A DNA stretch of 64,000 nt from contig JACJNW010000039.1 of the NCBI GenBank assembly GCA_014695195.1, positions 186,001-250,000 on the forward strand, given 5' to 3'. Positions 27,243 to 45,826 of the stretch are shown here, piece by piece. The first letter of the stretch is position 1, and each line of letters begins with the position of its first letter. This stretch comes from Cyanobacteria bacterium FACHB-DQ100 (GTDB lineage Bacteria > Cyanobacteriota > Cyanobacteriia > Leptolyngbyales > Leptolyngbyaceae). The notes below the pieces were generated by a model that was not told where the DNA came from, made no database searches, and saw only the letters and a list, made by a program, of their open reading frames with translations. The position numbers and the translations under genes were made by a program.

Positions 27243-29648
27243 ATGCTACATCGTAAACTGATCCATCCGCCAAAGCACATTTATCCACATGATCCTTGGC
27301 GGTGGGTTGAAACTGAGTTCTACCCGCAACGCCTTGCCCAGATGGAAACTTTATTTTCTACTGCTAATGGCTATGTCGGAATGCGTGGGGGGTGTGAGGA
27401 AGGCAATCCGGTGGCGCAAAACGGGACATTCATTAATGGCTTCTATGAGTCGTATGAGATTGAGTATGCGGAAGCGGCATATGGCTATGCGAAAACCGGA
27501 CAGACGATCGTCAGCGTGACTGACAGTAAGCCGATTAAGCTTTATGTTGATGATGAACTATTTTATTTGCCGACTGCAACTTTGTTGCAGTTTGAACGCG
27601 CTCTGAATATGCAGACGGGGACGCTCGATCGAGAAATTCTCTGGGAAACGCCGTCGGGAAAGCAGGTTTTGATCCGATCGCAGCGATTGATATCGCTTGT
27701 GCAGCGTCATGTGGCGGCGATTTCCTATGAAGTCACTTTGCTCAATGCAGAAGCGCCGATCGTCATTTCTTCGGAAGTCCGCTACGAGCCAGAAGGCGGT
27801 AGCACCAGCAACGATCCAAGATTGGCGAAGAAGTTTAAAGAGCGGGTTCTCCTTCCGCAACAACAGTCCAAGCGCGATCGCCGATTGATTCTCAGTCACC
27901 AAACTCGAAATAGTCACATGACAGTTGCCTGTGGTGTCGATCATCAGTTTGAGACAGACTGTGCTTATGAGTACACCAGCGATTGTTCTGAAGATGATGG
28001 CAAAGTGGTCTTTAGCATTGATGGAAAGCCCAATGCAACGATTCGATTGATCAAGTTTATTACTTACCATCATTCGGGGCGCTGTTCGAGTCAGGAATTG
28101 CACGATCGCGCAGAACGGACGCTCGATCGAACGATGAAACAAGGCTTTAATGCACTCCTGAAAAGCCAATGTGACTATCTCGATGATTTTTGGTATCGCA
28201 GTGATATTGAGATTGATGGCGCACCCGATCACCCCGATGAAACACCAGAGCGGCTACAGCAAGTTCTGAGATTTAATCTGTTCCACATTTTGCAAGCTTC
28301 GGCGCGATCAGAGGGAGCGGGAATTCCATCAAAAGGATTGACCAGCCAAGCCTATGATGGACATTACTTCTGGGATGCAGAAATCTATGTGATGCCATTT
28401 CTAACTTATACGGCACCCTCGATCGCAAAGAATCTATTAATGTTCCGCTATCAAATGTTGGATCAAGCAAGACAGCGGGCAAAGGAAGTAAGTCAAGCAG
28501 GGGCATTGTTCCCCTGGAGAACCATCAACGGGGAAGAAGCTTCGGCTTATTATGCAGCAGGAACGGCTCAGTATCACATTGATGCTGACATTATGTATGC
28601 CCTAAAAAAGTATGTAAAAGTCACGCAGGACGATGAGTTTCTTTGTCAGGTTGGAGCAGAGATGCTCGTGGAAACAGCGCGAATGTGGTTTAGCTTAGGA
28701 TTTTTCTCACCGCGATCGAACAACCAATTCTGCATTCATGCAGTGACAGGGCCGGATGAATACAACACTGTGGTTGATAACAACACTTACACCAATTTGA
28801 TGGCAAGAGAGAACCTTTGGTATGCTGCCAAAGTGGTGCGACAACTGCACAATGAGTATCCCAATCGCTTTGCTGCGCTAGCTGCAAAAATTCAAGTTGA
28901 ACTTTCAGAAGCGGATGACTGGCAAAGAGCAGCCGACTCAATGTATCTCGCTTTTGACGAGAAGCTAGGCATTCACTTACAGCACGATGGATTTTTAGAA
29001 CAAGAAGTTTGGGACTTTGAGAACACACCTGCTGAGAAGTATCCTCTGCTGCTTCACTTCCATCCTTTGGTAATCTATCGACATCAAGTGATCAAGCAAG
29101 CTGACATTGTGTTAGCAATGTTTTTACTGGGGCATGAGTTTTCGCGAGAGCAAAAGCGCCAGAACTTTGAGTATTATGATCCGCTAACGACAGGTGATTC
29201 TTCGCTATCTGTGTGTATTCAAAGCATTGTTGCAGCAGAAATCGGCAAAATGGATCAAGCGATCGACTATGCCCGCTATGCCACCTTGATGGATTTAGGC
29301 GATGTGGCAGGCAATGTAGAAAATGGATGCCACATTGCCTCAATGGGCGGGACTTGGATGGTGTTAGTGTATGGATTTGCAGGCTTACGCGATTCTGATG
29401 GAGGATTTTCGTTCCATCCTCGGCTACCAAAGACCTTAAAGCGGATGAAGTTTGCGCTGATTCTACAAGGGCAGCGGTTAGAAGTTGAGATTACGCACGA
29501 CAAAGCAACTTACTTGCTGCGAGAAGGAACGAAATTAACGATCGAGCATCAGGGCGAAACCATTGTTCTGGGCGCGGAAGAACCTGTATTGATGGCAATT
29601 AAACCAATCGACAAGATAGAAACTTGCATTCAGGATCAGTCTAGGTAA
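27243..29648 (+). CDS. Glycoside hydrolase family 65 phosphorylase
   Basis: An 801-residue GH65 enzyme with the N-terminal beta-sandwich (about 10-290), the (alpha/alpha)6 barrel (about 330-710) and the small C-terminal beta domain. The catalytic acid is E506 in HAVTGPDEYNTVVDN; another signature is GLTSQAYDGHYFWDAE (365-380). GH65 enzymes phosphorolyse maltose, trehalose, kojibiose or related disaccharides to beta-glucose-1-phosphate. The specificity cannot be read here. No beta-phosphoglucomutase gene, the usual partner, is nearby. The last 8 bp overlap the convergent Uma2 remnant. Confidence 0.88.
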   Translation: MLHRKLIHPPKHIYPHDPWRWVETEFYPQRLAQMETLFSTANGYVGMRGGCEEGNPVAQNGTFINGFYESYEIEYAEAAYGYAKTGQTIVSVTDSKPIKLYVDDELFYLPTATLLQFERALNMQTGTLDREILWETPSGKQVLIRSQRLISLVQRHVAAISYEVTLLNAEAPIVISSEVRYEPEGGSTSNDPRLAKKFKERVLLPQQQSKRDRRLILSHQTRNSHMTVACGVDHQFETDCAYEYTSDCSEDDGKVVFSIDGKPNATIRLIKFITYHHSGRCSSQELHDRAERTLDRTMKQGFNALLKSQCDYLDDFWYRSDIEIDGAPDHPDETPERLQQVLRFNLFHILQASARSEGAGIPSKGLTSQAYDGHYFWDAEIYVMPFLTYTAPSIAKNLLMFRYQMLDQARQRAKEVSQAGALFPWRTINGEEASAYYAAGTAQYHIDADIMYALKKYVKVTQDDEFLCQVGAEMLVETARMWFSLGFFSPRSNNQFCIHAVTGPDEYNTVVDNNTYTNLMARENLWYAAKVVRQLHNEYPNRFAALAAKIQVELSEADDWQRAADSMYLAFDEKLGIHLQHDGFLEQEVWDFENTPAEKYPLLLHFHPLVIYRHQVIKQADIVLAMFLLGHEFSREQKRQNFEYYDPLTTGDSSLSVCIQSIVAAEIGKMDQAIDYARYATLMDLGDVAGNVENGCHIASMGGTWMVLVYGFAGLRDSDGGFSFHPRLPKTLKRMKFALILQGQRLEVEITHDKATYLLREGTKLTIEHQGETIVLGAEEPVLMAIKPIDKIETCIQDQSR

Positions 29649-29928
29649 ATAGAACTATGATCGGCATTCTAAACCCAGGCAACACGGCACTTGTGATCTC
29701 ATCACCCGGAAACAATGTTGCGACTAGCGCGAGGGTAGCGGATTCTCGGCGGTAAACCTCCATCTGTTGAGCTTGCCAATCAATGATCCAATACTCTCGC
29801 ACTCCTCGCGCTGAATAAAGGCGGAGTTTGAGTTCGCGATCAATAATTTCATATCGTCGGTCATCCTCCGGAGGTAGCTCTAGATCTGCGATCGTCCACC
29901 GCATCCGATCAGTAATGGGTTGATTCAT
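29641..29928 (-). pseudogene. Uma2-family nuclease gene with internal in-frame deletion
   Basis: The frame is open for 95 residues. Residues 1-27 match the start of Uma2 proteins (RMRWTIADLELPPEDDRRYEIIDRE) and residues 32-95 match their end (YSARGVREYWIIDWQAQQMEVYRRE...LLPGF-like PGFRMP). About 90 residues that normally lie between, including the catalytic PD-(D/E)XK acids, are missing. The junction falls between two regions of similar sequence (family DGEL and REAKLKLYS), as expected for deletion by short homology. It is almost certainly inactive. Its stop overlaps the end of the GH65 gene. Confidence 0.7.
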
Positions 29929-29970: not shown

Positions 29971-31680
29971 TCAGAACAAAAAATAACGTTGCGCCATGGG
30001 TAAAACCGTTGCAGGTTCGCAAGTTAATAGTTCGCCATCTGCCCGAACTTGATACGTCTCTGCATCTACTTCCATGTGAGGGAGTGCATCATTCAGTTTC
30101 ATATCGCGTTTGGTCAGACTGCGAATTCCAGAAACGGGAACTAATCGACGTTTCAAATGCAGCGAATCTAAACTACCTTTCTTCAACGAAGCCTGAGAAA
30201 CAAACGTAAGGGAGATGGGCGCGATCGCTTGACCAAAACTGCCAAACATCGGACGCATATGTACAGGTTGCGGAGTCGGAATACTCGCATTTGCATCGCC
30301 CATCTGTGACCAAGCGATCATTCCTCCTTTGATTACCATTTCTGGCTTGACTCCAAACATTGCAGGTCGCCACAGACACAAATCGGCTAACTTACCAACT
30401 TCAACCGATCCAACGTGATCCGCAATGCCATGTGTGATTGCAGGATTGATCGTGTACTTGGCAACATAGCGTTTGGCTCGGAAATTATCATTCCGATCGC
30501 TATCCTCTGATAATGCTCCCCGTTGTACTTTCATCTTGTGTCCGGTTTGCCAAGTGCGAATGATCACTTCTCCGATGCGCCCCATTGCTTGCGAGTCAGA
30601 AGACAGCATACTAAACGCACCAATATCATGCAGAATGTCTTCGGCTGCGATCGTTTCTCGGCGAATCCGCGATTCTGCAAAGGCAACATCTTCAGGAATG
30701 CTCGGATCAAGATGGTGACAAACCATCAACATATCTAAGTGTTCATCTAGCGTGTTTTGTGTGTAAGGTCGAGTCGGATTGGTCGAGGAGGGCAATACAT
30801 TCGCCTCACCACAAACTTTAATGATGTCTGGAGCGTGTCCGCCGCCTGCACCTTCGGTGTGATAAGTGTGAATGACGCGATTTTTGAAGGCTGCGATCGT
30901 ATCTTCAACAAAGCCTGCTTCGTTTAGGGTATCGGTGTGAATGGCAACTTGCACATCATAGTCATCAGCCACGCTTAAACAGGTATCGATCGCCGCAGGT
31001 GTGGTTCCCCAGTCTTCGTGCAGCTTCAGTCCCATTGCGCCCGCTTTGATCTGTTCTTCGAGTGCATCCGGTTGGCTCGAATTTCCCTTGCCTAAGAATC
31101 CTAAGTTCATCGGGAAGGCTTCTGCCGCTTGCAGCATTCGATGAATGTACCAAGGTCCGGGAGTGCAAGTCGTGGCATTCGTTCCCGCAGCAGGTCCTGT
31201 TCCGCCACCAATCATCGTTGTAACACCCGATGCGATCGCAACTTCGATCTGTTGCGGACAGATAAAGTGAATGTGAGTATCAATTCCGCCTGCGGTGAGG
31301 ATCAGGCCTTCTCCGGCGATCGCTTCAGTGCCAGGGCCAATAATGATCGTGACATCGTCTTGAATATAGGGATTTCCAGCTTTACCGATCGCATGAATCT
31401 TCCCATCCTTAATTCCCACATCTGCTTTCACAATGCCCCACCAGTCAAGGATCAGCGCATTGGTAATCACTGCATCAACCGCACCCTCTTCATTGGTAAT
31501 CGGCGATTGTCCCATGCCATCGCGAATCACTTTCCCGCCGCCGAATTTCACTTCATCCCCGTAAGTGGTCAGGTCTTGTTCGACTTCGATGATCAGTTCA
31601 GTATCCGCAAGCCGGACGCGATCGCCGACAGTCGGGCCAAAAGTTTCGGCATAGGCGCGGCGATTCATGCGATAGCTCAT
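29971..31680 (-). CDS. ureC: Urease alpha subunit UreC
   Basis: A 569-residue catalytic subunit of urease, which hydrolyses urea to ammonia and carbamate. Nickel ligands H136 and H138 lie in [12 protein letters not shown], the carbamylated lysine is K219 in [12 protein letters not shown], and the active-site flap cysteine/histidines are in [13 protein letters not shown]. All are intact and the length is standard. The other urease genes (ureA, ureB, accessory genes) are not in the window, which fits the scattered urease genes of many cyanobacteria. No NtcA box was found upstream. Confidence 0.96.
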
Positions 31681-31742
31681 AAGGCAACCCTCGGAAAATT
31701 CTCGGTTGTTTATTATCAGATGGATTTAGAGCAGATGCAGAA

Positions 31743-31758
31743 GGCTTTAGGATTTTGA
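31743..31758 (+). repeat. 16-bp direct repeat, left copy
   Basis: GGCTTTAGGATTTTGA occurs here and again at 32935-32950 in the same orientation, flanking the PD-(D/E)XK-like/PIN gene pair. Both copies lie outside genes. Confidence 0.75.
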
Positions 31759-31835
31759 CTGATTTTGACGGGCGATCGTGGGTGATTCAAGTTTTGCGAC
31801 AGAATGATAGAGTAAATCGTCTTTGAAGAGGGCGA

Positions 31836-32306
31836 ATGATGTCGATTTATCTAGGTTTTCAATGGGATATAGAAGTTAGAAATCGCTCTGGTCAACTTGT
31901 CGTAGCGGTTGAAGTGAAAACCAAACTGAATGCTGCACCAGATTGGGCTGCGAAATTTAGAAGTAATCTTCTCGCTCATGAAGAAGCTCCAAAGGCTCCA
32001 TATTTCCTGATGGCTTTTCCCGATCGTCTCTTCCTGTGGATTGAATCTGATGGTCAATTAGATCGAGAACCAGACTACATCATTGATGCTGTTCCAATTT
32101 TTCAACCTTATTTTGAACGAACAGGAATCCAGCCTGAGCAAATCTATGGCGACAGTTTTACGCTGATGGTTGGTGCGTGGTTAAGCGAACTGACGCTTTC
32201 AAAAAATCTTGCTGAAACATCCTATCAATCACAATCCTGGCTGATTGATTCTGGTCTCTATTCAGCCATCTCTGGAGGACAACTTCAGTATGAGGAATTG
32301 GCGTGA
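31836..32306 (+). CDS. PD-(D/E)XK nuclease-like protein paired with PIN protein
   Basis: A 156-residue protein. The N-terminal region has the spacing of a PD-(D/E)XK site, D11 in FQWDIEV then E26-V-K28 in VVAVEVKTK, followed by a helical region ending in LMVGAWLSEL. Similar proteins occur widely in cyanobacteria next to PIN-domain genes, without a known function. Two ATGs (31836, 31839) can start it, with GAGGGCGA just upstream. The stop overlaps the start of the PIN gene by 4 bp (GTGA), so the two are translated together. It may be the antitoxin of a toxin-antitoxin pair or a nuclease in its own right; neither is shown. Confidence 0.6.
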   Translation: MMSIYLGFQWDIEVRNRSGQLVVAVEVKTKLNAAPDWAAKFRSNLLAHEEAPKAPYFLMAFPDRLFLWIESDGQLDREPDYIIDAVPIFQPYFERTGIQPEQIYGDSFTLMVGAWLSELTLSKNLAETSYQSQSWLIDSGLYSAISGGQLQYEELA

Positions 32307-32914
32307 ATATTTACGTCGAAACGAACTTTATTCTGGAATTGGCTTTTGAGCAGGAACAGTGTACAAGTTGTGAATCAGTTTTAAGTCTGTGCCAAACTGG
32401 TCAGGCAGGGCTAATCATTCCGGCTTATAGTTTGGCTGAACCCCATGAAAAGTTGAGCCGTCAAGCCATTCGTCGCACGAATTTGCAGCAACAACTGAAT
32501 GCTGAATTAGCTCAACTTTCACGGACAGTCTCTTATGGCGATCGGATTAGGAATATTCAAGATGTCTCTGATCTCATTACTCTAAGCAATCAAGAAGAGC
32601 GACAACGATTCAATCAAATTCGATCGCGCTTAATCAGCCTTGCTGAAATTATTCCACTGACTTCCGACATCTTGCTTGAAGCCGCATCCTGTGAGCTAAC
32701 TTATCAGCTAAGACCTCAAGATGCGATCGTCTATGCTTCTGTGGTGGATCATTTGCAGCAGAATCAACCCCAGCGATCGTGCTTTCTCAATCGCAATGCA
32801 AGAGACTTTGATGATCCCAATATTATTGGTGAACTCAATCAATTGAATTGCCGAATGCTTTCCCGATTTGATCACGGATATCAGTTTATTCAGGCACAAC
32901 TGCGATCGTCATAA
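32303..32914 (+). CDS. PIN-domain protein (VapC-like ribonuclease)
   Basis: A 203-residue PIN-domain protein starting at GTG 32303. The acidic residues of the fold are E6 in YVETNFILELA, E46 in YSLAEPHEK, D140 in RPQDAIVYASV and D168/D170 in NARDFDDP. It is longer than classic VapC (about 130) owing to a charged helical insertion at about 55-115. PIN proteins cut RNA and are often toxins. It is coupled to the upstream PD-(D/E)XK-like gene by a 4-bp overlap; the usual VapB-type DNA-binding antitoxin is absent. The pair is flanked by 16-bp direct repeats. Confidence 0.75.
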   Translation: MNIYVETNFILELAFEQEQCTSCESVLSLCQTGQAGLIIPAYSLAEPHEKLSRQAIRRTNLQQQLNAELAQLSRTVSYGDRIRNIQDVSDLITLSNQEERQRFNQIRSRLISLAEIIPLTSDILLEAASCELTYQLRPQDAIVYASVVDHLQQNQPQRSCFLNRNARDFDDPNIIGELNQLNCRMLSRFDHGYQFIQAQLRSS

Positions 32915-32934
32915 AGTTTGCAGAATTTACCGAT

Positions 32935-32950
32935 GGCTTTAGGATTTTGA
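32935..32950 (+). repeat. 16-bp direct repeat, right copy
   Basis: Second copy of GGCTTTAGGATTTTGA, 1192 bp from the first and 21 bp after the PIN stop codon. Confidence 0.75.
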
Positions 32951-33009: not shown

Positions 33010-33315
33010 ATGCAAACGGGATTAGGAATTGCGGAGCTTTTATCGGAGAAACGATCGCAGATCCTAGAAGTCGCGGCACGGCATGGAGCATTCGACATCC
33101 GAGTATTTGGTTCAGTTGCGCGGGGAGAAGCGACAGCAACCAGCGACATCGATTTTCTGGTTAACTACGATTTGGAAAGGATTTCGCCTTGGTTTCCTGG
33201 AGGGCTAAAGCTTGATTTAGAAAGGCTTTTGCAGCGCAAGGTTGATGTTGCAACGGTGGATATGTTGAAAGAACGGATTCGAGAGTCTGTTCTTTCAGAG
33301 GCAGTGCGGTTATGA
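33010..33315 (+). CDS. mntA: Minimal nucleotidyltransferase antitoxin MntA
   Basis: A 101-residue minimal nucleotidyltransferase. The catalytic signature is G34-S35 followed by D46 and D48 (VFGSVARGEATATSDIDF), with the third acid D79 in QRKVDVATVD. In MntA/HepT systems this enzyme AMPylates the HEPN toxin HepT and so silences it. The stop overlaps the start of the HepT gene by 4 bp (ATGA). MntA is intact here, while its toxin is frameshifted. Confidence 0.85.
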   Translation: MQTGLGIAELLSEKRSQILEVAARHGAFDIRVFGSVARGEATATSDIDFLVNYDLERISPWFPGGLKLDLERLLQRKVDVATVDMLKERIRESVLSEAVRL

Positions 33316-33652
33316 GGCGAGATGATGAACGGTTGCGGGATATTTTGGTGCGATCGCAGCGATTGAACGGTACGCGAATCAAGGAAAGCAGGCGTTTGAT
33401 GCACAAGAACTGATTCAAGTTTGGATTGTTCATCATCTTCAGGTTATTGGAGAGGCAACAAATTCATTATCAGTCGAATTGATGAATCAATACTCCGAAG
33501 TGCCGTGGGTGCAAATTATTGCGTTCAGGAACATTGTGGTGCATGAGTATTTCCGGGTGTCGCTGAACTTAGTTTGGGTGATCGTGCAGAACAACTTACC
33601 TAGTTTGAAGGATACGGTTGATAGAATGCTTGTGGAGATTGATGATCTCTAA
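33312..33652 (+). pseudogene. hepT: HEPN-domain toxin HepT, frameshifted
   Basis: Starting at ATG 33312 the frame reads MRRDDERLRDILV and then runs into a stop after about 34 codons. From 33350 the correct sequence continues in another frame (AIAAIERYANQGKQAFDAQ) without interruption to a stop at 33652, so one base is missing near 33347-33350, inside or next to a GCGATCGC site. Joined, the product would be about 113 residues, the normal HepT length, with the RNase motif R-x4-H-x-Y intact (RNIVVHEY, codons 33527-33550). The downstream frame still looks clean, so the loss is recent, or the frameshift is programmed or a sequencing error. Confidence 0.8.
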
Positions 33653-42497: not shown

Positions 42498-43934
42498 ATG
42501 TCTGATTTGATTTTGTTTTGGCATCGTCGGGATCTTCGGGCTTCAGATAATTTGGGGCTGTCCAAGGCAAGAGAACGATCGCCAAAAGTCGTGGGCGTGT
42601 TTTGCCTTGATCCGTTGATTCTCGATCGCGATGATGTTGCGCCTGCCCGGGTGAAGTATCTGATCGGCAGTCTGGAATCTTTGCAGGAGCGGTATGCGGC
42701 GGCAGGGAGTGAATTACTGATTATCCAGGCTGATCCGAAGGAAGGGATTCCGAAACTGGCACGATCGCTGAATGCTAAAGCGGTGTTTTTGAATCAGGAT
42801 GTCGAGCCGTATGGACGCGATCGCGATCAGGCAGTGGTCACTGCGCTGAATGAAAGTGGAATCGAAGTGCAGCGATTTTGGGATCAACTGCTCCATTCAC
42901 CGGAAGACATCAAATCAGGAACAGGTTCGCCTTATACGGTTTATTCCCCGTTTTGGAAGAATTGGAGTAGTCGATCGAAAGCGTCTCCCGTTGCAGATTT
43001 GGCAGGGGCAGAAGGATTGACCGATGCCGAGCGGGAACAAGCAGCAGGGATCATTCCGCTTCCAACAGTAAAAGAACTGGGCTATGTCTGGGACAATCCC
43101 TTGATGCTTGATCCCGGCGAGAAGGCGGCAAAGGAGCGATTAGAAGAGTTCTGTGCTTCGGCGATCTATCAATATCAGGAACAGCGAAATTTTCCGGCTC
43201 AGCCTGGGACTTCGCTTTTAAGTGCGGCGCTCAAGTTTGGAGTGATTGGAGTCCGGACGGTTTGGGCGGCGACCGTGGAAGCGGCAGATCACAAGGGCGA
43301 AACCGATGATATTCGAGTTTGGCGGCAGGAGATTGCTTGGCGCGAGTTTTATCAACACGCAATGTATCATTTCCCTGAATTAGCCGAGGGTGCTTATCGT
43401 CCGGTGCTGAAGACGTTTCCCTGGGACAATAACGAAAAGTATTTTCAGGCTTGGTGCGAAGGGCGGACGGGATATCCGATTATCGATGCGGCGATACGGC
43501 AGATGAATGAAACCGCTTGGATGCACAATCGCTGTCGAATGATTACGGCAAGCTTTCTCACAAAAGATTTGTTCGTGGACTATCGCTTGGGTGAGAAGTA
43601 TTTTATGCAGCGGTTGTATGATGGCGATTTGTCGTCGAATAACGGCGGGTGGCAGTGGAGTACATCGAGCGGCATGGATCCAAAACCGTTGAGAATCTTT
43701 AATCCGGCGAGTCAAGCGAAAAAGTTTGATGCGGAGGCGGAGTATATTCGCGAATGGTTGCCAGAGTTGCGGAGCGTTGACACTGAGAATTTGCTTTCGG
43801 GCAAGATTTCGCCGGAGGAGCGCGATCGAGCCGGATATCCCAGACCGATCATTGACCACAATGTTCAACAGCGCAAATTTAAGGAGCGGTTTGCCGCGCA
43901 GAAGGCAGCGACCGGAGATGGCGGCGGGGATTAG
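42498..43934 (+). CDS. phr: Deoxyribodipyrimidine photolyase (class I CPD)
   Basis: A 478-residue DNA photolyase that repairs UV-made cyclobutane dimers with light. The N-terminal antenna domain starts with LILFWHRRDLRASDN. The FAD domain shows WRQEIAWREFYQHAM, GRTGYPIIDAAIRQMNETAWMHNR (spread over residues 329-352) and FLTKDLFVDYRLGEKYF. Length and sequence match cyanobacterial 8-HDF-type enzymes. The last 38 codons (43821-43934) are duplicated as a fragment at 44805-44920, and a palindromic element begins 2 bp after the stop codon. Confidence 0.94.
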   Translation: MSDLILFWHRRDLRASDNLGLSKARERSPKVVGVFCLDPLILDRDDVAPARVKYLIGSLESLQERYAAAGSELLIIQADPKEGIPKLARSLNAKAVFLNQDVEPYGRDRDQAVVTALNESGIEVQRFWDQLLHSPEDIKSGTGSPYTVYSPFWKNWSSRSKASPVADLAGAEGLTDAEREQAAGIIPLPTVKELGYVWDNPLMLDPGEKAAKERLEEFCASAIYQYQEQRNFPAQPGTSLLSAALKFGVIGVRTVWAATVEAADHKGETDDIRVWRQEIAWREFYQHAMYHFPELAEGAYRPVLKTFPWDNNEKYFQAWCEGRTGYPIIDAAIRQMNETAWMHNRCRMITASFLTKDLFVDYRLGEKYFMQRLYDGDLSSNNGGWQWSTSSGMDPKPLRIFNPASQAKKFDAEAEYIREWLPELRSVDTENLLSGKISPEERDRAGYPRPIIDHNVQQRKFKERFAAQKAATGDGGGD

Positions 43935-43935
43935 T

Positions 43936-44069
43936 AGACCTCTTACATGAATTGTCGATGCCCTCACCCTAACCCTCTCCCCAGGGAGAGGGAACAAGAA
44001 TTCTAGCTCCCTTCTCCCCCAGGGAGAAGGGTTGGGGATGAGGGCTGTCTGGATTCATGCAAGAGATCT
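43936..44069. repeat. 134-bp palindromic MITE-like element
   Basis: Terminal inverted repeats AGACCTCTTACATGAAT (43936-43952) and, inverted, AGATCTCTTGCATGAAT (44053-44069) match at 15 of 17 positions. Inside are two hairpin-forming arms: CCCTCACCCTAACCC with its mirrored GGGTTGGGGATGAGGG, plus CTCCCCAGGGAG and TTCTCCCCCAGGGAGAA. This CCCTCACCCTAACCC-type sequence recurs as a dispersed palindrome in many bacterial genomes. No reading frame. It starts exactly where the photolyase 3'-end duplication stops. Confidence 0.7.
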
Positions 44070-44087
44070 TGCGAGTGTTCAGCAGAA

Positions 44088-44690
44088 TCAAGCATTCAGA
44101 ATTTGATTGAGAGTCAAGGTTAATTCGGGAAAGGTACGAGAGAGAATACGATCGTCCTCTTTAAACGCCGTGGATTGGTAAACGCCTGACTCATCTAATA
44201 AATAAACAAAAACCGTCGGCGTTTTGGGGTTGCCTAAGTAAGTTCTGCTGCCGATCGCTAGATAATCAACGATCCAATACTCAGAAATTCCCATTCGTTG
44301 ATATTCATCGAGTTTATCGATGTAATCGTCTTCCCAATTGGTTGAAACCACTTCTACGGCTAATTGAATCGGTTCTTGTAAAGCGGCATAGGCAAGCCGA
44401 TTCGATCGCCACAACGCTAAATCAACAACGCTTACATCTGGATTGCGCCCATGCTCTTTGCCTGCTTGCGTTTGTGTGGCTAAAACAATCCGATCTGAAA
44501 CTTTGTAGTTTAACTGACGGAGTTTTACTTCATCTTTCATTGCATCAGCAATAAAATCGGCGATGTCCTCGTGTTGTCTTGTGGCTAAAATTCTCACGAT
44601 TTCCCCATCAACGAGTTCATAGCGCCCATCTTCGGGATATTGCTCAAGAAACTGATCAAAGGAAAGCTCTTGTTTGGCAGCGATCGTCAT
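44088..44690 (-). CDS. Uma2-family PD-(D/E)XK endonuclease
   Basis: A 200-residue Uma2 protein from the ATG at 44690 (MTIAAKQELSFDQF). Catalytic features are intact: GRNPDVSVVDLALW (P-D), then IQLAVEVVSTNWEDDYIDKLDEY (E-V-V-S-x-x-W-x-x-D), and GISEYWIVDYLA. It lies inside the segment bracketed by the photolyase 3' end and its duplicate, beside the palindromic element, so it was probably carried in with that segment. Target and role are unknown. Confidence 0.82.
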   Translation of the reverse strand: MTIAAKQELSFDQFLEQYPEDGRYELVDGEIVRILATRQHEDIADFIADAMKDEVKLRQLNYKVSDRIVLATQTQAGKEHGRNPDVSVVDLALWRSNRLAYAALQEPIQLAVEVVSTNWEDDYIDKLDEYQRMGISEYWIVDYLAIGSRTYLGNPKTPTVFVYLLDESGVYQSTAFKEDDRILSRTFPELTLTLNQILNA

Positions 44691-44804
44691 TGCGATACGT
44701 CCTCCTGTTTCCAATGCTCTCAATCTGTAGATTTCAGACGACTGGTAGACCTCGATTCTAGATCAAGCTGAACTTAACCCTATCAAGGTTTCCTACGACT
44801 TGAG

Positions 44805-44920
44805 GCGCGATCGAGCCGGATATCCCAGACCGATCATTGATCACAACGTTCAACAGCGCGAATTCAAGGAGCGATTTGCCGCGCAGAAGGCAGCAACCGG
44901 AGATGGCGGCGGGGATTAGT
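44805..44920 (+). pseudogene. Duplicated 3' end of the photolyase gene
   Basis: 116 bases matching 43820-43935 with six differences. It preserves the last 38 codons including the TAG stop, but has no upstream coding sequence or start. Five of the six differences are third-position synonymous changes and one changes Lys to Glu, so the copies diverged while both were coding, not after the fragment was cut off. The simplest reading is the 3' end of a formerly complete or foreign photolyase allele left behind by an integration or recombination event. Confidence 0.85.
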
Positions 44921-45595: not shown

Positions 45596-45826
45596 GCTCT
45601 CCGTTGAGCAATTTTTGCCCATCGTTGCACTGTTTCAGCGATCGCGAGCACTGTTTTAATGCATCGTTGAGCTATTTTAGCGATCGCGTGAACTGTTTTA
45701 GTGATCCGGAGCGCTGTTTTAGTGCATCGTTGAGCTATTTTAGCGATCGCGTGAACTGAAATAGCGATCGCGAGCACTGTTTCAGTGATCCGATGAACTG
45801 TTTTAGTACATCGTTGAGCTATTTTT
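45596..45826. repeat. 21-bp tandem repeat (11 units) containing HIP1
   Basis: Eleven consecutive 21-base units, each ending in a CTGTTTTA or CTATTTTA-like core and many starting with GCGATCGCG. Three unit types recur: GCGATCGCG(T/A)G-type, GTGATCCG-type and (A/G)T(G/A)CATCGTTGAG-type. On the minus strand the array is open and would encode seven-residue repeats such as IAKIAQR; on the plus strand it has stops. It lies between hicB and the PEP-CTERM-like gene. Confidence 0.9.

Follow-up and report, generated by a model that had tools for sequence, protein, structure and literature searches.

Two overlapping genes located upstream of ureC in Cyanobacteria bacterium FACHB-DQ100 raise the question of what a PIN-domain protein does beside a partner with the residues of a PD-(D/E)XK nuclease, and whether the identical 16-mers on both sides of the pair mark its arrival at this site. 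Few bacterial toxins have been studied as much as those of the PIN type, whose known antitoxins are mostly small DNA-binding proteins. The window, i.e. the whole stretch of 64,000 nucleotides that was analysed, comes from a genome of 5.5 Mb in 44 contigs; the first gene of the pair is called A and the second B. The interpretation favoured here, with a probability of about 0.6, is that the pair constitutes a mobile type II-like toxin-antitoxin module whose antitoxin has a restriction-nuclease fold with dispensable catalysis. The features of the region are as follows, G001 and G007 being two other genomes of the same genus.

29971-31680, minus strand: ureC, identified by a match to Urease_alpha
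31743-31758, no strand: left 16-mer, a native ureC-upstream element, the core of which (TTTAGGATTTTGA) is found in six of the seven other same-genus genomes
31759-31835, plus strand: leader preceding A; a similar sequence precedes a different PIN pair in G007
31836-32306, plus strand: gene A, 156 aa, probable antitoxin of PD-(D/E)XK (HSDR_N-like) descent
32303-32914, plus strand: gene B, 203 aa, PIN_12, VapC-like, probable RNase toxin
32935-32950, no strand: right 16-mer, which looks like a duplicate of ureC-upstream DNA; AAGGAAG comes next, as it does in the pair-less G001
33010-33315, plus strand: MntA-like nucleotidyltransferase gene, the right flank of the slot, outside the pair

The two genes share the four bases GTGA, and the 16-mer GGCTTTAGGATTTTGA is present in two copies on one strand, 1192 bases apart, both of them intergenic with respect to real genes; in all these respects the original prediction was accurate. 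A spurious TTG ORF (31129-31758) terminates inside the left copy. The 16-mer is not a common dispersed sequence, as the two copies flanking the pair are its only exact occurrences in the entire genome. When up to three mismatches were allowed, the window still yielded just these two copies; at least two such loose matches were obtained in 12 of 100 shuffled windows, so this is not unusual by itself. Exact direct repeats of at least 16 bases within 2 kb numbered nine in the window, versus a mean of 0.06 and a maximum of 1 in 100 first-order Markov simulations of it. The MntA-like gene matched the PADLOC model PDC-S09 and scored under the NCBIfam cut-off for MntA. It is followed by a HepT-like toxin gene, recognised by PF01934 in the frame 33329-33649 and disrupted by a frame change (the two genes together span 33010-33649). 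A short ORF on the minus strand (29641-29928) presumably resembles a Uma2-type fragment.

Gene B matched PIN_12 across the full profile (56.1 bits at a cut-off of 32). The best structural alignment of its model (pLDDT 91.7) was with VapC toxins (7by3_B, Z 11.8, 121 residues, 2.8 Å), and HARP was matched as well (Z 8.5). The protein exceeds the usual VapC in length through two long helices, residues 41-72 and 76-113. The acids predicted to be intact were indeed present: E6, E46, D140 and D168 were invariant in 34 of 34 close relatives, and D170 was found in 31. In 19 further, distant sequences E6 and D140 were retained throughout and E46 in 17, the fourth acid being D in 6 and E in 10, with another residue in the remaining 3. 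B is also better conserved than A (mean column identity of 70% versus 56%). Its sequence and model suggest that B is a VapC-like PIN ribonuclease and a probable toxin; by analogy with VapC, its RNA target may be guessed to be tRNA.

The nature of A was less readily recognised. The window's A gave no usable family in Pfam, NCBIfam or PADLOC, and the sequences of the PDB offered nothing usable (the best hit, unrelated, at E 0.74). DNA-binding antitoxin families (RHH, AbrB, HTH, Phd) were not matched by this protein at E up to 1, nor by any of 46 A proteins at E up to 0.1, in agreement with the predicted absence of a DNA-binding antitoxin; a single one of the 46 matched DUF234 (E 0.0047). In the structure model of A (pLDDT 83.4) D11 opens the first strand and E26-V-K28 closes the second, which is the placement expected of a D..(D/E)xK motif. 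Foldseek returned no match to the model at E 0.001 or less. The structural matches included type IIG and type I restriction nuclease domains with Z of at most 4.2; the best of them was the type IIG enzyme DrdV at Z 4.2, with pyrophosphatases about equal at Z 4.0.

More informative were the distant upstream partners of PIN_12 genes (A'): the profile of A initially reached that of locus L066 (E 1.3e-7), and more of them after iteration. The motif takes the form PDFVALDKEGQIILIAEVKG in L127, for example, and relatives carry PD...EVK. Six distant A' were tested: L066 passed HSDR_N_2 (26.7 bits versus a cut-off of 25), four others gave sub-cut-off matches to the HSDR_N_2, PDDEXK_14, PDDEXK_4, BsuBI_PstI and NucS models, and L063 matched none of these five. 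One of eight upstream genes in Chloroflexota and Planctomycetota matched HSDR_N_2, weakly. Since distant relatives reach HSDR_N_2 and carry the PD...EVK motif, descent of A from the PD-(D/E)XK fold is likely, as judged from sequence, and the assignment originally made from D11, E26 and K28, all of which are present, may stand as one of ancestry.

The catalytic residues are not constant among the relatives. In the 46 complete A proteins D11 was found in 43, K28 in 44 and E26 in 38 (replaced by Q in 5, L in 2 and A in 1), so that all three are intact in 36 and at least one is altered in 10. Five of the altered proteins (L077, L091, L092, L101 and L103) stand beside a complete B. In L114, which also has a complete B, the nearer copy of A is frameshifted and the complete upstream copy is devoid of D11 and E26; the other four adjoin a broken or missing B. 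Loss of the motif was not rarer beside a broken B (4 of 12) than beside a complete one (6 of 33). The D was present in all of 21 further A sequences, E26 and K28 in 15 each. W115 and G140, both outside the motif, were kept in 82 and 81 of the 83 rows of an alignment that contains repeats of the same loci. Because the motif is altered in 10 of 46, nuclease activity of A may be needless in some members; being intact in 36, it may equally serve a catalytic role of A's own.

The relation between the two genes was approached from both sides. When 386 genomes of the phylum were searched with B alone, it was found in 35 of them at 43 places, of which 38 were examined and five had no locus. Both genes were complete at 32 of the 38 places, a complete A adjoined a broken B at four, both were broken at one, and pieces of B without recognisable A were found at one. 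Thus every complete B in this set was accompanied by a complete A (32 of 32), and A was confirmed as its constant partner. The loci found with A in species genomes (n=49) comprised 33 with both genes complete, 10 with a broken B, two with no B and four with a broken A, none of these combining a complete B with a broken A. Sets found with A favour intact A and sets found with B do not, yet the two agree. 'Broken' stands here for less than 85% profile coverage in one open frame, or for fixed lengths in the other count, so a shortened but working gene would be scored as broken, and part of the damage seen in draft genomes may reflect errors in the sequence. The profiles, that of A included, were trained partly on loci that they later scored, and the locus sets overlap, with the window in two of them. 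One exception to the pairing was met: L155 of Planctomycetota has a complete PIN_12-like B and no recognisable A. Retention of A without B, and hardly ever the reverse, is the pattern expected of an antitoxin and its toxin. Tandem A-B arrangements with partly decayed copies occur in L107, L108 and L114 and suggest duplication and loss in place.

The original prediction held that the pair had moved as a unit, and its distribution bears out that it is mobile. Among the relatives it is patchy (10 of 97, including the window's own genome), and matches in named genomes are mostly cyanobacterial. B was detected in 8 of 301 genomes of Chloroflexota, all eight with an A homologue (B was incomplete in L152 and L153), and B-like genes in 3 of 294 of Planctomycetota, with a clear A in L140; in L156 the match to B is partial and that to A weak (E 0.023). 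Further relatives of A were found in records of Roseiflexaceae, Methylococcaceae and Desulfobacterales, all of which but HSG16 are titled metagenome-assembled genomes, so that misplaced contigs are possible. Five cyanobacterial plasmid records had both A and B at least 80% covered, three of them being near-identical plasmids of 29.6 kb, and both profiles matched on a plasmid of Hymenobacter, a member of Bacteroidota (A 9e-22, B 1e-32). In pCHRO.01 A is whole and IS200/IS605 genes separate it from most of B; the Nostoc plasmid unnamed5 has an intact A followed by a transposase gene, and B was not found there.

There is also a distant version of the pair. At eight loci of one family (L063, L073 and L125-L130) the order was a gene read as ispF, A', B' and a gene for a transporter solute-binding protein, the first reading having been tested (YgbB) for three of these loci and the last (SBP_bac_5) for one. 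The E or K of the A' motif is missing in L125, L129 and L130. The window's own genome carries one distant pair elsewhere (L124, G000:C28:179733-180278).

The closest known counterpart is VapBC. As in VapBC, a PIN toxin-like protein with intact acids is encoded by the downstream gene of a two-gene operon, the upstream gene specifying a small partner, and the genes are mobile and plasmid-borne. Unlike in VapBC, the partner is of PD-(D/E)XK type and not a recognised DNA-binding antitoxin, and B has a long two-helix insert and falls in PIN_12; as A matched no DNA-binding antitoxin, the pair was not filed as a classical VapBC. With HSDR_N_2 (the N-terminus of the type I restriction R subunit) and Uma2, A shares the D..(E)xK motif in a beta hairpin; it differs in its size of about 150 aa, in having no helicase or specificity domain, in its position beside a PIN gene and in the loss of the motif in some members.

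In its sections on PIN-associated genes, the survey of Makarova et al. 2009 names the antitoxin families COG2442, COG2886, COG2880, COG1753 and a MerR-like one (PMC2701414). These resemble A as small PIN-coupled genes, some of them abundant in cyanobacteria and chloroflexi, but have DNA-binding folds; the same sections list no PD-(D/E)XK partner of PIN, and PD-(D/E)XK is mentioned there for Uma2, a family of putative endonucleases that in cyanobacteria mostly stand alone (PMC2701414). Parts of the DefensePredictor paper describe defence systems in which PIN proteins have other partners; the one in DS-5 has DUF5830 and an AcrIF4-like domain, unlike A, and is reported not to be an antitoxin (PMC13092281). 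Synechocystis has many PIN pairs, several with hypothetical partners, according to the relevant part of PMC4963859, and an unrecognised member may therefore be among them. Searches of open-access papers listed no PD-(D/E)XK/PIN toxin-antitoxin pair, in keeping with the original suggestion that the class had not been described. If the reading is true, a nuclease-fold antitoxin would be a different way of restraining a toxin, and PIN_12 proteins of unknown role would gain partner genes.

A working scheme for the module can be drawn by analogy with the VapC family. A would be translated first and coupled to B through the four-base overlap, both proteins being made together. A would then bind B and keep it inactive, perhaps via the conserved C-terminal part of A, the nuclease motif being seemingly dispensable for this role. 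On a shortage of A, B would cut RNA and growth would stop; such an arrest could stabilise a plasmid or cassette, or stop infected cells.

The main competing explanation is a two-part anti-phage system, in which A would be a working nuclease or sensor and B an RNA-cutting effector, both needed and neither restraining the other as antitoxin restrains toxin. The 36 of 46 A proteins with D, E and K all intact fit it, as do PIN systems with non-antitoxin partners, e.g. DS-5 (PMC13092281), and the match of the MntA-like neighbour to a candidate-defence model of PADLOC. Against it speak the survival of A without B, complete B being almost never found without A, and the altered motif of A beside several complete B; no PADLOC model matched A or B. 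The viral contigs searched held no relative of either gene, which says little. An anti-phage system was considered unlikely, though it deserves more weight than the proposal that the pair performs housekeeping RNA processing, with B cutting cellular RNA under the guidance of A and no toxin involved.

tRNA is processed by PIN proteins that carry long helical inserts, HARP for instance. The housekeeping proposal finds its footing in the two long helices of B, in the structural match to HARP and in the constant order after ispF in eight genomes, the fixation of the distant version within one family being something that a housekeeping role would also fit. VapC is a far better match than HARP (Z 11.8 versus 8.5), and superposition of the helices of B on those of HARP was not demonstrated, so HARP-like tRNA processing was ranked below a VapC-like activity. 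The patchy presence of the pair, its occurrence on plasmids and in several phyla and the frequent decay of B alone also speak against a housekeeping pair, which appears improbable. A toxin-antitoxin module, with A as the nuclease-type antitoxin that the original prediction had offered as one option, is retained as the best reading, because A survives a broken B and complete B almost always has A in the sequences compared.

The 16-mer was originally taken for the footprint of the pair's insertion, and this could not be upheld. A was absent from all seven other genomes of the genus, and all seven have the ureC region. Six of them have the core TTTAGGATTTTGA at a distance of exactly 44 bases from another conserved ureC-upstream block (G005 is without the core), and in five of these six 7 to 9 of the 12 bases after the core agree with the sequel of the window's left copy. 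The conservation of the core and the bases after it in genomes without A indicates that the left 16-mer is native and the right copy was added. The check proposed originally, a comparison with empty sites, came out largely in favour of the prediction: the pair-less G001 has a single copy of the core here (15 of 16 bases). The core also belongs to the ureC-upstream DNA of six of the seven genomes that lack the pair. The G001 copy is followed by AAGGAAG and a nucleotidyltransferase gene, and the sequence after it agrees with that after the window's right copy at 11 of 12 bases. Taken together, the two conserved blocks of the ureC-upstream region (31680-31758 in the window) keep their constant distance of 44 bases in seven of eight same-genus genomes and may be a promoter or regulatory site.

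From the repeat alone, a transposon-like insertion of the pair with the 16-mer as its target-site duplication would be read, and the single core copy in G001 against two in the window's genome agrees with that. An insert of this kind begins and ends at the duplicated bases, which is not the case at the left copy: the native bases, as judged from the five pair-less genomes, run on past the left 16-mer, so the insert starts elsewhere. The 20 bases before the right copy are closer to the ureC-upstream DNA of G001 (15 matches) and G007 (14) than to the window's own left side (10). No transposase was recognised by eye among the ORFs of the site, and other pair loci share no flanking repeat. A target-site duplication was rejected as very improbable.

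The site is most simply read as a slot in which cassettes would be gained and lost through recombination at the ureC-upstream element, with the right copy as a second copy of that element; the event would leave a core on both sides of the module. In G007 the same flanks and leader enclose another pair, an 86-aa ORF without a Pfam match and a PIN gene (PF01850, 7.7e-14; L039:5268-5896) that runs into the shared right flank. Vacant in G001 and occupied by different PIN pairs in the window's genome and in G007, all of one genus, the slot represents a natural experiment on cassette exchange. The GC content of the pair, 42.7% as compared with 48.3% for the window, is at or above that of just 2% of windows of equal size (mean 48.4%). 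A possible scar of A in G007 was also considered: the leader alignment enters A by about 30 bases, and the coding part alone was not significant, as 274 of 2000 shuffles reached its score. A family present in Cyanobacteriota, Chloroflexota, Planctomycetota, Pseudomonadota, Thermodesulfobacteriota and Bacteroidota, in which a PD-(D/E)XK fold has turned into a PIN antitoxin, with a fixed ispF-side form in some cyanobacteria and a ureC-upstream slot of unrelated, interchanging PIN pairs, is the broader picture towards which the balance tips slightly.

Exact flanking repeats of at least 16 bases were found at 4 of 33 complete-pair loci (the window included and L114 left out by the span limit), versus 1 of 600 mismatched pairings of upstream and downstream flanks. 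A shared attachment site was rejected, no sequence being common to the four loci. The repeat at L095 is a remnant of tandem duplication and that at L112 a multi-copy repeat. In L092 (Argonema antarcticum; L092:3807-5283) direct repeats of 50 and 39 bases bracket the pair much as in the window, and they were seen at that locus only (3 matches on one contig). The eight remaining repeats of the window itself fall into three clusters, at 2842, 43820-44920 and 45637-45825; the latter two consist of exact direct repeats, each 17 to 36 bases long, with spacings of 985 and 63-147 bases, respectively.
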